A DNA stretch of 64,000 bases from Bacteroidota bacterium (lineage in GTDB: Bacteria > Bacteroidota > Bacteroidia > AKYH767-A > JAHEYN01): the NCBI GenBank assembly GCA_023251555.1, contig JAHEYN010000006.1:66640-130639 (forward strand), given 5' to 3'. Below are positions 1,871 through 50,292 of the stretch, piece after piece. The translations under genes were made by a program, and so were the position numbers. Numbering within the stretch: the first letter of the stretch is position 1; each line of letters starts with the position of its first letter. Below the pieces are notes generated by a model that had not been told where the DNA came from, ran no database searches, and worked only from the letters and a program-made list of their open reading frames with translations.

Positions 1871-2226
1871 AGATAGATGTATTATTGGGCCGGGTGTGGT
1901 AAATTCATAACGGGTTGTACCAGCGAAGATACAATAATCAGGGTTATGGCACTTTTCTGATTTAGCTCCACCGGAAGGTTTTTATATCCCAAAAGAACAG
2001 GTCTGTATTTTCGGGTAAAATAATGTAAAAATTTCTGCATTACAATGTTCCCCAATATACCCATGGCTGAAACATTCAGAACAGAATTTTCATTAATCCG
2101 CCTTTGCATAATCTAAGCCCGCATATACCCACCTCTGCATTGCGTAATACTCGGGATATACGCTATTATGAGTTATATTTGTAGCTGATAATTAATTGTT
2201 ATGTGCCATTTTTTATTTTGGAATTA
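1871..2226. other. Intergenic region with dispersed element copy 1
   Basis: This gap separates the divergent SBBP gene and the orphan gene at 2227. The first ~240 bases are AT-rich and hold nothing I recognise; a 75-codon reverse reading frame there has no protein-like features. The last ~95 bases are the dispersed element listed separately. Confidence 0.5.
2111..2206 (+). repeat. Dispersed promoter-bearing element, copy 1
   Basis: This stretch matches the reverse complement of 49893-49999. A 42-nt left block agrees at about 36 positions; a 49-nt right block (GATATACGCTATTATG ... TTAATTGTTATG) agrees at 47. The spacer between them differs in length, with about 14 extra bases in the other copy. 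Inside are inverted arms (GCATATACCC / GGGATATACGC) that could form a stem, and an exact Bacteroidota -7 box TATATTTG at 2174-2181. It ends about 20 bases before the ATG of an AT-rich orphan gene, and copy 2 has the same relation to its own orphan gene. The similarity is read directly from the sequence; a role as promoter or mobile cassette boundary is inference. Confidence 0.7.
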
Positions 2227-36535: not shown

Positions 36536-36745
36536 AATTGGTATTACCCCGGGGCAAGCCCGGGATATTCTTGTCCGCCGTAGCGGAACGCGAAGGCGGA
36601 GAATTCCGCAGCAAACTGCGGGGAATTGAACGAAACCCTCTCGTCCGCCGAAGCGGAACGCGAAGGCGGAGAATTCCGCAGTAAACTGCGGGAAATTGAA
36701 CCAAACTCTCTCGTCCGCCGAAGCGGAACGCGAAGGCGGATTAAA
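36536..36745. repeat. Modular palindromic repeat cluster, copy 2 (C'-A'-B'-A'-B'-A')
   Basis: Three copies of palindrome unit A' (CCGCCGTAGCGGAACGCGAA type) alternate with two copies of B' (CCGCAGTAAACTGCGG type), preceded by the C' block (GGGGCAAGCCCGGG) and TTGGTATTA. This is copy 1 (2951-3090) inverted, with one extra A'-B' unit. It separates the SpoIIE phosphatase gene from recJ and ends 9 bases before the recJ ATG. One reading frame passes through the repeats without a stop and joins recJ. Confidence 0.85.
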
Positions 36746-46531: not shown

Positions 46532-46597
46532 TGTTCTAACCCCCTAATTGGCTAGACAAAACTTAAAGAATAGTTTTGTACCGCTAAATTAGGAAAA

Positions 46598-46918
46598 ATG
46601 GAAAACAAGAAAAGAAAGTTTACCCCTGAAGAGAAGCTAAGCCTTCTCCAGGAAGCAGATCGTGAAGGAGCTGCAGTAACGTGCAGGAAGTACAACATCT
46701 CACACAGTTTAATCAGCCATTGGAAGAAGAAGTACCTGGGACAAGGGCTTCAGGGTCTTAAGGCTGCCTACAAGCGGGTAGATCCGGCTGTTAGGGCACT
46801 GGAAGATGAGAATGATCGACTCAAGAGGATCATAGCCAAGCAGACGATTGAACTAGAGTTTAAGACAGAGCTGTTGAAAGCAGCTGAGATCGACCCATTA
46901 AAAAAAAAGAGATGGTAA
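46598..46918 (+). CDS. IS3-family transposase OrfA
   Basis: A 106-residue helix-turn-helix protein ('KRKFTPEEKLSLLQEADREG', 'CRKYNISHSLISHWKKKYLG') with a leucine-zipper-like C-terminal part ('DENDRLKRIIAKQTIELEFK'). Near its end lies the slippery heptamer A-AAA-AAG (46903-46909) in the correct phase. A -1 shift there leads straight into orfB and would make the OrfAB fusion transposase. Confidence 0.92.
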   Translation: MENKKRKFTPEEKLSLLQEADREGAAVTCRKYNISHSLISHWKKKYLGQGLQGLKAAYKRVDPAVRALEDENDRLKRIIAKQTIELEFKTELLKAAEIDPLKKKRW

Positions 46919-47868
46919 AGCGGTTTTCGGATAAAGTCGAAGTGATGGACCTTTGCACCTGGGCATGTATTCCCAGAAGCGTTTACTATTACCGTAATAC
47001 GGATGGTAAGCCCGGAGTAAAGCCCAGCACCCATACGTTCACATTAGACGGAGGCAGAGTTGAAAACAGCAGGGTCATAGAAGAGATACAGAACATTTTA
47101 AAGCAGGAATTTGTTTCTTATGGATATGATCTGGTCAATGAAGAATTAAGGGATATGAGGTACATTATCAACCCCAAAAAGACCTACCGGCTGATGGATG
47201 AAAATAACCTCTTGATGGGTAAGCGTATCCATACCACCGGTAAGCGGGATTTTGTGAAGTTCCGTAAAATCACGGCTGCCTATCCCATGGAACACCTGTG
47301 CATGGACATCAAGTATGTTTGGGTGGAAGGAGAACATAGAAATTATTATCTGCTCACCGTGCTCGATGTATTTAGCCGCAAGGCTGTTGAATGGATATTT
47401 CTCCCCTCTATCCGCAAATACCAGGTCATTAGCCTCTTTATGCGGATGGCATCACAGTACGATGTAAAGGGCGTTACCGTTCGTAATGACAATGGCAGCC
47501 AGTTCATAGCAAATAACGTTCGTAAGTATCTCAAGGAGATTGAAATGAAACAGGAGTTCTCCCATATCAGCACCCCGCAGGACAATGGCTATATCGAAGG
47601 ATTCTTCAGCAATCTCAGACGTGACCTGCTGAGCAAAACTGAATTCTACAGCTACTACGAGGCCAAGCTAAAGATAGAGGCCTACATGGAGCATTACAAC
47701 CACAAACGCAAGCACAGGAGAATCGGAAAAATTACGCCTCAGCAAAAATGGACGGAAGGACTAAAAATCAAATCAATAATTAAATCAGAAACCAATTATC
47801 TTTACACCGAAAATCAAATCAAAAATCAACCCAAGGTCGAAACTGTTTTTGAAATTATGTCTAACTAA
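46912..47868 (+). CDS. IS3-family transposase OrfB (DDE integrase core)
   Basis: A 318-residue DDE recombinase. The first Asp is in 'LCMDIKYVWVEGEHRNYYLL', the second in 'VTVRNDNGSQFIANNVRKYL' and the Glu in 'QDNGYIEGFFSNLRRDLLSK'; the C-terminal 'HYNHKRKHRRIGKITPQQKW' is typical. An HTH_21-like segment ('VSYGYDLVNEELRDMRYIIN') precedes the core. It lies in the -1 frame relative to orfA with a 7-base overlap and has its own ATG, so OrfB could also be made alone. Confidence 0.94.
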   Translation: MVKRFSDKVEVMDLCTWACIPRSVYYYRNTDGKPGVKPSTHTFTLDGGRVENSRVIEEIQNILKQEFVSYGYDLVNEELRDMRYIINPKKTYRLMDENNLLMGKRIHTTGKRDFVKFRKITAAYPMEHLCMDIKYVWVEGEHRNYYLLTVLDVFSRKAVEWIFLPSIRKYQVISLFMRMASQYDVKGVTVRNDNGSQFIANNVRKYLKEIEMKQEFSHISTPQDNGYIEGFFSNLRRDLLSKTEFYSYYEAKLKIEAYMEHYNHKRKHRRIGKITPQQKWTEGLKIKSIIKSETNYLYTENQIKNQPKVETVFEIMSN

Positions 47869-47955
47869 TAGGGGGTTAGAACAGTTATGCACAGGGCGTT
47901 TCTGTCCGATGAAATGCGGAAGTGTCAACCGAGAAAGAAACAAACCAATGATGAT

Positions 47956-49521
47956 TTACTCTTTAATAATTTTTGTGTCTTTTATAACAGTCCCTTTGCT
48001 GTCGGATAACCGAACAAAATAAATACCTGTCGGTAAAGTAGAAATATCAATAGTGTTTGTCATTGCTGTCTTGAAGATAAGTTGTCCGAATGAATTGTAA
48101 AGCGTAACTGTCCCAGTTGATAAACCTGTAATAAAAATTTTGTCTGCTGTCGGGTTAGGAAAAATATTTATCTGATTTGATGTGCTCGTTAAATTATTAT
48201 TTGTGCCTGTTGTAATTCCTGAATTACAAAAAATATCATTAATTTCTGTTTGAGTTAAAGCACGATTATAAATTAAAATATCGTCAATGTCTCCATTGAA
48301 GAAGGCAGGATAAAGAACATCGTGATTTGATTTACCAATAAAATTTCGTTGTCCTGTTGTGGTGTAAGAAGGAATTGTCCCCGATTGGTCGAGCGTTGCG
48401 TCAACATAAGTTTTAATATTTCCTGCTCCGTCATAAACAGTTCCCACAAGATGCCATTGACTGTTATTGATTGTTGCACCAGCAGCAGGGTAAAAGTCAT
48501 TATTGTATCCCATCACGCCAAGTGTTGCAGTTCCGTAATTTACAATGAGATTAAACGCTGTTCCTGTACTTGTCGTGTCTCCTGTTGCAACGATTGCCAT
48601 AGAAGTTGAACCGCTAAACTTTACCCAAGAAAAAATTGAACGAGCAGTATTTCCAGTTGCGGCAACGCTCGGAACAGAAATAAAAGAACTTCCATTAAAA
48701 TTATATGCGGCATTTGAATTTCCAAAACGGTCTGTTGTCAGAGTTGCTCCATTGTTTGTTCCATTATAGTTGTTTCCGCTAATGTCGTTGGTATTTCCAG
48801 AGAACGGATATTCTGCTACCAGTCCACTTGTCGGAATAGTGCAATTTGTCGCGTTAAATATTTGTGTTATCTCTGTTTGTGTTAAAGCACGATTGTAAAT
48901 TAAAATGTCGTCAATGTCTCCATTGAAATAAGCGGGGTAAAGATTATCATCATTTGATTTGCCAATAAAATTACGCTGTCCCGTTGTACTGTAGGATGGA
49001 ATAGTTCCTGATTGGTCAAGGTTTGCGTCAACATAAGTTTTAATATTTCCTGCTCCGTCATAAACAGTTCCCACAAGATGCCATTGACTGTTATTGATTG
49101 TTGCACCAGCAGCAGGGTAAAAGTCATTATTGTATCCCATCACGCCAAGTGTTGCAGTTCCGTAATTTACAATGAGATTAAACGCTGTTCCTGTACTTGT
49201 CGTGTCTCCTGTTGCAACGATTGCCATAGAAGTTGAACCGCTAAACTTTACCCAAGAAAAAATTGAACGAGCAGTATTTCCAGTTGCGGCAACGCTCGGA
49301 ACAGAAATAAAAGAACTTCCATTAAAATTATATGCGGCATTTGAATTTCCAAAACGGTCTGTTGTCAGAGTTGCTCCATTGTTTGTTCCATTATAGTTGT
49401 TTCCGCTAATGTCATTAGCATTTCCATTGAAAGGATAACGCCCAACAAGTCCGTTAGTTGGAATTTGTGCAAAAGCATTAAATGATAACGCTACAATTGC
49501 AGTTGTAAATATTTTTTTCAT
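47956..49521 (-). CDS. Secreted protein with two tandem LamG-like domains and T9SS type A tail
   Basis: A 521-residue exported protein. A signal peptide (1-18, ending 'NAFA') precedes two near-identical ~209-residue LamG/concanavalin-like domains. Each begins 'GLVxxYPFxGNxNDISGNNYNG' and has 'ARSIFSWVKFSGSTSMAIVA', 'QWHLVGTVYDGAGNIKTYVD' and 'GDIDDILIYNRALTQTEI'. A type A sorting domain follows ('INIFPNPTADKIFITGLSTG' ... 'STLPTGIYFVRLSDSKG'). It is expected to be surface-bound and to bind carbohydrate. The DNA is AT-rich and lies beside an insertion sequence, which points to acquired DNA. Confidence 0.93.
   Translation of the reverse strand: MKKIFTTAIVALSFNAFAQIPTNGLVGRYPFNGNANDISGNNYNGTNNGATLTTDRFGNSNAAYNFNGSSFISVPSVAATGNTARSIFSWVKFSGSTSMAIVATGDTTSTGTAFNLIVNYGTATLGVMGYNNDFYPAAGATINNSQWHLVGTVYDGAGNIKTYVDANLDQSGTIPSYSTTGQRNFIGKSNDDNLYPAYFNGDIDDILIYNRALTQTEITQIFNATNCTIPTSGLVAEYPFSGNTNDISGNNYNGTNNGATLTTDRFGNSNAAYNFNGSSFISVPSVAATGNTARSIFSWVKFSGSTSMAIVATGDTTSTGTAFNLIVNYGTATLGVMGYNNDFYPAAGATINNSQWHLVGTVYDGAGNIKTYVDATLDQSGTIPSYTTTGQRNFIGKSNHDVLYPAFFNGDIDDILIYNRALTQTEINDIFCNSGITTGTNNNLTSTSNQINIFPNPTADKIFITGLSTGTVTLYNSFGQLIFKTAMTNTIDISTLPTGIYFVRLSDSKGTVIKDTKIIKE
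48398..48786 (-). repeat. Internal tandem duplication, distal copy
   Basis: These 389 bases look identical to 49025-49413 (period 627 bases = 209 codons). The flanking parts of the same LamG repeat units differ at many positions, so only the middle is homogeneous. Confidence 0.85.
49025..49413 (-). repeat. Internal tandem duplication, proximal copy
   Basis: Partner of 48398-48786. The identical core begins at the GCGTCAACATAAG sequence and ends at CCGCTAATGTC in both copies. Confidence 0.85.
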
Positions 49522-49559: not shown

Positions 49560-49853
49560 TTATAATATTCCTAATTTTTCAGCAATATTTTGTCCTCTCA
49601 TTTTATGAGCATTTTCACAAATGAATGATTCAAATTTTTCATTCAGTACATTCTCTATTTCTGAAGAATGCTCCTTAATTATTTTTTTTAGTAATTTGTT
49701 TAAATCTTTCTTAGCACATCCTCGGTTCATCATTTCTTTGTATAAATTTTTTCTATTGAATTTATAAAAAGCAGAATTGTCGCAATAAATTGTGTCGCTT
49801 TTTATTCGGACATTTTTATTGAATTTGTTCATAGAGTTAAAATTGTCTGCCAT
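49560..49853 (-). CDS. Small hypothetical protein
   Basis: A 97-residue basic, soluble protein that I do not recognise ('NKNVRIKSDTIYCDNSAFYK', 'KKDLNKLLKKIIKEHSSEIE'). It is AT-rich like the LamG gene 38 bases further on, and is possibly cotranscribed with it. The dispersed element copy 2 lies 40 bases upstream, and a TAACTTTG box lies two bases before its ATG. Confidence 0.6.
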   Translation of the reverse strand: MADNFNSMNKFNKNVRIKSDTIYCDNSAFYKFNRKNLYKEMMNRGCAKKDLNKLLKKIIKEHSSEIENVLNEKFESFICENAHKMRGQNIAEKLGIL

Positions 49854-49863: not shown

Positions 49864-49892
49864 ATTTAAAATACTGTCGTTTTTTCGCCTTG

Positions 49893-49999
49893 TGCATAAC
49901 AATTAATTATCGGCTACAAATATAACCCATAATAGCGTATATCAAGCACATGTTGTGGAGTATCACGCAATATAGAGGTGGATATACGCAGGCTTAGAT
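49893..49999 (-). repeat. Dispersed promoter-bearing element, copy 2
   Basis: Reverse-complement match of 2111-2206. It contains perfect 9-bp inverted arms (GCGTATATC / GATATACGC) about 40 bases apart, a spacer with ~14 bases more than copy 1, and the conserved TATATTTG box (49917-49924). It ends at GTTATG, 40 bases upstream of the small orphan gene, the same polarity to the gene as copy 1. Confidence 0.7.
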
Positions 50000-50106
50000 A
50001 TTGAGATTTTCGAGGTGACTTTGAATTTTTCAACTATAGAAGAGAACTACTACGCTTTTGACTCGACACCACATGAAAAAAACAAACAGAAAGGTGATTT
50101 AATTAA

Positions 50107-50292
50107 AATGGTATTATAACCCCCAAGGCAAATCCCGGACTCTCTTGTCCGCCATAGCGAATGCGGAATGAACCACCTCGCCGCAAGCAGCGAGGTATCT
50201 TAAGGGAATTTGATCATCATTGCGCAGCAAGCTGCGGGGAATTAACCCAAGACCTTCCCGTCCGCCGTAGCGGAACGCGAAGGCGGATTAAA
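50107..50292. repeat. Modular palindromic repeat cluster, copy 3 (degenerate)
   Basis: The order is C', a decayed A', an extra palindrome (CCTCGCCGCAAGCAGCGAGG), B' (CGCAGCAAGCTGCGG) and an intact A' ending GGCGGATTAAAAAAAG. The last A' and the TTAAAAA that follows match the recJ-proximal end of copy 2. It lies past the 3' end of the Fic gene. Confidence 0.75.

Follow-up and report, generated by a model that had tools for sequence, protein, structure and literature searches.

The window, the whole 64,000-nucleotide stretch of DNA that was analyzed, contains a 521-aa gene on the reverse strand (47956..49521), in which the ORF call and Pfam reveal an N-terminal signal-like stretch, two Laminin_G_3 domains and a Por_Secre_tail C-terminus of the T9SS type. 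The signal-like N-terminus was judged by eye. The Laminin_G_3 family (PF13385) matches the protein in two stretches (E 5e-37, 127.8 bits against a curated 27.6); on the reverse strand, domain copy 1 (aa 20-221) lies at 48859..49464 and domain copy 2 (aa 229-429) at 48235..48837. The C-terminal sorting domain (aa 453-516; 47974..48165, reverse strand) matches PF18962 with an E value of 1e-12 and 48.4 bits, over the cut-off of 27, and by this domain the LamG protein is a predicted T9SS cargo. Pfam found no enzyme domain in the gene. The AlphaFold2 model of domain 1 is a jelly-roll with a mean pLDDT of 82, and its best fold match is domain 4 of the arabinanase AbnA (5hon_A; TMq 0.80, 24% identity). 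Among the 50 fold matches listed, all except four AbnA entries have 12-18% identity and carry no information on function. The gene resembles known proteins that join a LamG-like jelly-roll (PF13385) to a T9SS signal, in that both parts have Pfam matches, and it differs from them in carrying a 391-nt identical tract.

This tract occupies the center of both domain copies, at 49023..49413 in copy 1 and 48396..48786 in copy 2 (both on the reverse strand), and spans 130 codons of each ~202-residue domain. The earlier note had read 389 nt, 48398-48786 and 49025-49413, as identical at a period of 627 nt. Exact comparison confirms this identity and extends the maximal run to 391 nt. The copies were also said to differ at many positions outside the tract; in the parts of the domain pair that flank it, 50 of 215 nt indeed differ, compared with 0 of 391 inside. 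The flank toward the gene's 5' end has 17 differences in 51 nt (NG86 dS 3.3, dN 0.23) and the flank toward the 3' end 33 in 164 nt (dS 1.4, dN 0.08); the 55 codons of the latter divide into 29 identical, 19 with silent and 7 with replacement changes. The flank differences are mostly silent, and both dS values are saturated. Third positions differ at 10 of 17 sites in the 5' flank, 20 of 50 in the 3' flank and 0 of 130 in the tract (Fisher 4e-17 for 0/130 vs 30/67). When 50 differences were scattered at random along the 606-nt domain pair 100,000 times, the longest run of identity came to 150 nt and none extended to 391 nt. At all other offsets from 150 to 1499 within the surrounding 9 kb, the longest exact run was 12 nt. 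The 627-nt period of the tract exceeds 500, the longest that Tandem Repeats Finder considers, and the program therefore omits it. Within the 3' flank, we also observed that 48245-48300 has only 3 differences in 56 nt, compared with 23 in 95 nt at 48301-48395 (Fisher p = 0.003). This segment may be a smaller, older homogenized patch; the low number of differences may also owe something to selection, as the conserved domain end is encoded there.

A sharp-edged tract of identity in a pair that is otherwise saturated at silent sites, as found here, is the pattern by which gene conversion is recognized. The most probable account by a wide measure is that the gene holds an old tandem LamG duplication, the central 391 nt of which were recently overwritten by homologous recombination between misaligned copies. 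The LamG domain would have been duplicated in tandem inside the gene long ago, giving the silent sites time to saturate, and later one copy would have overwritten the central 391 nt of the other by gene conversion. Unequal exchange that first expanded the array to three copies and then contracted it would leave the same trace, so the present sequence does not distinguish the two routes. The exchange points would lie inside aligned but diverged homologous sequence, and for this reason the old differences would be kept in both flanks. One homogenization event suffices for the tract. The absence of differences at ~100 silent sites limits the silent divergence of the tract to less than ~3% by the rule of three, so the homogenization is far younger than the duplication. 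In these respects, the suggestion of recent gene conversion or unequal exchange in the earlier note stands well, with silent divergence saturated on both sides of the tract and none inside. The duplication, the exact tract and the saturated silent divergence outside it are direct observations, while we infer the recombination pathway, its direction and its occurrence in the present organism rather than in an earlier host of the gene.

Other explanations have to be weighed against this recombination within the gene. LamG cores are generally conserved in fold, and purifying selection on the protein or the DNA could in principle preserve the identity of the tract. However, the earlier note had already pointed out that selection on the protein would leave silent changes. 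With no difference at any of the 130 third positions while the adjacent coding sequence is saturated, selection is no explanation; protein-level selection as the cause is ruled out by the silent sites, and the best relative (L068) shares no more than 34-37% protein identity with this region. We give selection in either form practically no credence. The assembly deserves slightly more attention because the source assembly is in 55 contigs and an exact repeat of 391 nt exceeds typical short reads, so that a consensus might have made near-identical copies identical or dropped further copies. Nevertheless, collapse cannot create exact identity from 20-30% divergence, since an assembler could merge only sequences that were already nearly identical, and the two copies are held apart by distinct flanks in a contig of 139,564 bases. 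An artefact is thus very improbable.

The two copies could instead come from different parents. In this model, two alleles that had already diverged, or two paralogous LamG genes such as those of related cassettes, would have shared an identical core and recombined out of register to form the tandem gene. This origin is unlikely, although less so than an artefact. In its favor, a 25-codon fragment of a LamG N-terminus (60% aa identity) runs into a dispersed repeat elsewhere in the genome (G000:C10:39438-39512), which implies that a second related gene once existed there. On the other hand, the two alleles would have to be saturated everywhere except in an identical core, which presupposes a prior recombination of the same kind, and no such allele was found in the organism's own assembly, in the genome_contigs scan or in the 42 genomes of the order. 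An outside donor within the genome was considered as well, and the own assembly yielded no full-length donor at E 0.001.

Consistent with recombination between sister copies, domains 1 and 2 pair with each other (100/98) in a 41-row domain tree, in which the nearest outsiders have ~40% identity to them; 4 of the 38 inner branches of this tree are starred and its deep relations are not settled. The highest identity of domain 1 to a domain of another protein is 41% among the 22 others aligned. The two domains of the L068 relative also group together, at 72% identity. The own genome contains nine places that match the LamG gene, namely the gene itself, the 25-codon N-terminal fragment and seven at the C-terminal sorting region, one of which reaches back to residue 325; the search at E 0.001 returned no other full relative. 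Across the order, a search at E 1e-20 found relatives in 12 of 42 genomes, among them the own genome; the best relative outside it has 40% protein identity, too distant to polarize the tract. The genome_contigs scan gave 32 relative loci, many matching the sorting tail only, and a tblastn search of plasmids with the LamG protein gave four records at 25-32% identity and no close relative.

Our domain look-up covered 28 of the 49 relative loci, 27 of which have a LamG match, and 8 frames have two or more. The longest exact internal run in these related multi-LamG frames is 9-20 nt in seven and 67 nt in one (L076), in a genome of the order. In the latter, an exact repeat of ~67-69 nt (1-69 and 865-933) lies in frame, outside the matched domains, and begins at the first base of the contig. 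The run may therefore be longer in the real genome and may represent another homogenized tract, in which case the LamG gene is perhaps not alone. Runs of 75 nt (L081) and 50 nt (L030) have no bearing on this comparison because each of these loci has only one LamG match in the frame. Resemblance between paired LamG domains within a gene recurs, as in L068, but a long exact tract was seen only in the gene studied here, L076 excepted. The idea in the earlier note that the tract may reflect a mechanism for varying the repeat number of a surface protein receives no support: the gene has two copies only, the genome has no other full relative, and no comparable tract occurs in the eight related frames apart from the open case at the contig end.

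The identical center, the diverged flanks and the in-frame tandem copies are features that the LamG gene shares with intragenic gene conversion and concerted evolution of tandem domain repeats. In contrast to the vls and pilin systems, it lacks silent cassettes, shows no sign of programmed or recurrent variation and comprises two copies only. We regard the tract as ordinary concerted evolution in an interesting, unusual vehicle. It cleanly illustrates homogenization among the repeated domains of a surface protein and warns that repeats of recent appearance may be old duplications freshly overwritten. Our literature search on gene conversion in intragenic tandem repeats, surface proteins and Bacteroidetes, with subscription journals mostly outside its scope, found no account of the LamG case among the titles and abstract openings listed; the nearest subject is reportedly a study of tandem BACON domain repeats in crAssphage (PMC6949934).

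The vehicle itself became apparent from the surroundings of the gene. The LamG gene and a 97-aa ORF upstream of it (49560..49853, reverse strand; no Pfam match at E 0.001), the second ORF of a presumed cassette, are enclosed by 15-nt inverted ends matched at 14 of 15 positions, which is the R'/R'' complementarity that characterizes an integron cassette. The R'-like start is GTTATGCACAAGGCG (49886..49900, reverse strand), and its inverted partner, CGCCCTGTGCATAAC in the gene's sense (47884..47898, forward strand), resembles the R'' that begins an attC site. The enclosed stretch has a GC content of 35.3%, compared with 47.5% for the window, and only 1 of 124 windows of equal length is as low. 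At its start the stretch adjoins a copy of a 127-nt dispersed repeat, and at its other end an IS3-type element. An intact attC is absent: the IS3-type element directly follows the R''-like motif, so the rest of the attC is missing, and by eye no R' half was seen beyond the element. From this sequence context, the LamG gene is probably the cargo of an integron-type cassette whose attC was lost or destroyed. This assignment draws on the fact that two other islands behind the same repeat end in attC-type hairpins while a third carries a reversed one. The arrival of the gene as a cassette is not itself the cause of the tract.

The repeat copy next to the cassette (49897..50023, reverse strand) ends with G followed by TTA at the cassette start. 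A repeat search found the 127-nt repeat at 10 places in the own genome, and 8 of the 10 copies end at AATTAATTG followed by TTA and then diverge, while the other two diverge earlier. One copy is entered directly by the 25-codon LamG remnant on contig C10 (L005/L018). Elsewhere in the order, the repeat was found in 0 of 41 other genomes; in the class, the matches listed, with at most two candidates scored per genome, include 2 of 395 genomes, the own one and one with a weak 26-nt match. A 32-letter pattern of the repeat had no match in viral_contigs or plasmids, and an Rfam scan of seven repeat loci gave no matches at E 0.1. A second, more diverged copy in the window (~79%; 2111-2201, forward strand) precedes GTTATGTGCC and an ORF of 221 aa (about 2227-2892), for which Pfam gave no match.

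A complementary cassette end was found for three of the eight copies that end in GTTA, those in the window and on contigs C51 and C8, and was not found for the other five. On C51 and C8, the unit that follows the repeat closes with a sequence inverse to its own opening, matched at 15 of 16 and 13 of 14 positions respectively. Both units then continue into an attC-type hairpin, TAAC-AGC...GC(T/C)GC-AAAAC/AAACC-GTTA, of 141-142 nt as folded. The hairpins on C8, C31 and C51 have an unpaired AAAAC or AAACC spacer, and the one on C31 is oriented the opposite way relative to its repeat. With one mismatch allowed, the attC core pattern occurs at five places, compared with three for a backwards control; three of the five fold as attC and two do not. 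One attC scanner found the C31 site, missed those on C51 and C8 and returned two false-looking matches, and a second scanner returned none; these scanners are unreliable, so the count of attC sites rests on the three inspected ones. The cargo behind the repeat includes a Vsr protein and a C5 methylase on C51 and GmrSD_N and HEPN proteins on C8, and an HsdM protein lies behind the repeat on C22, where no cassette end was found. We call the repeat attI-like from the junction between G and TT, and it is possibly a landing site for attC cassettes.

No frame in the own genome exceeds the curated TIGR02249 cut-off for IntI, and sub-threshold matches to this model also occur in all 14 control genomes. 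Two full-length frames match it: the one on C27 is a XerD that exceeds the TIGR02225 cut-off, and the one on C23 is Xer-like and falls below that cut-off. A 59-residue C-terminal remnant of a tyrosine recombinase on C31 (C31:37385-37555; L054:1498-1674) reaches 78.6 bits against the IntI model and 76 against XerD, nearly equal values that make it not assignable to IntI or Xer. It lies ~4.5 kb from a repeat copy, beyond an attC-type hairpin.

Taken together, the islands resemble integron cassettes and CALINs (clusters of attC sites without integrase) in their complementary ends (LamG window, C51 and C8) and in the TAAC...GTTA hairpins on C8, C31 and C51. They differ in that no IntI exceeds the cut-off and the cassettes are scattered behind the 127-nt repeat rather than gathered in one array; in addition, the attC of the LamG cassette is truncated and the C31 hairpin is reversed. 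One tentative reading, which we consider possible but would not yet favor, is a scattered integron, in which the repeat would serve as an attI-like site at 10 places and attC cassettes, carrying the LamG/T9SS gene and genes of restriction or defence type, would have been inserted singly or in small groups in trans by an integrase that is now lost or unassembled. A review (PMC8618304) counts Bacteroidota, to which we assign this genome from its T9SS tails, among the phyla with integrons and passes on the proposal that integrase-less cassette clusters arise through off-target insertion by an IntI elsewhere, through loss of intI or through rearrangement. Off-target insertion by a distant IntI or loss of intI would fit the cassettes of this genome. 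If a scattered integron is indeed present, the LamG tract would record recombination in a mobile surface-protein gene. The cassette context matters more than the tract: a genome with attC cassettes dispersed behind a recurring attI-like site, one of them encoding a lectin-like protein, would merit closer examination.

The element that truncates the cassette end (46532..47883, forward strand) has perfect 15-bp terminal inverted repeats, directly abuts the R''-like motif and sits directly after the TAAC of the presumed attC. We take it to belong to the IS3 family from its domain content. IS3-family elements have an OrfA with HTH_Tnp_1, an OrfB with rve and TG...CA terminal inverted repeats, and all of these features are present at 46532-47883, with OrfA at 46598-46918 and OrfB at 46912-47868. 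By eye, no target duplication was seen. On contig C39 (C39:54259; L100 around 1500), an IS end lies ten bases past the TAAC in CACTAACAGCGGGCTTG. Two of the six places with a readable IS end abut TAAC-type motifs, and this is perhaps an IS element with a taste for attC sites. Elsewhere in the window, a tandem repeat at 36569-36740 has a 70-nt unit in 2.5 copies, and similar GTCCGCC...GGCGGA words were noticed by eye near 50140-50290.
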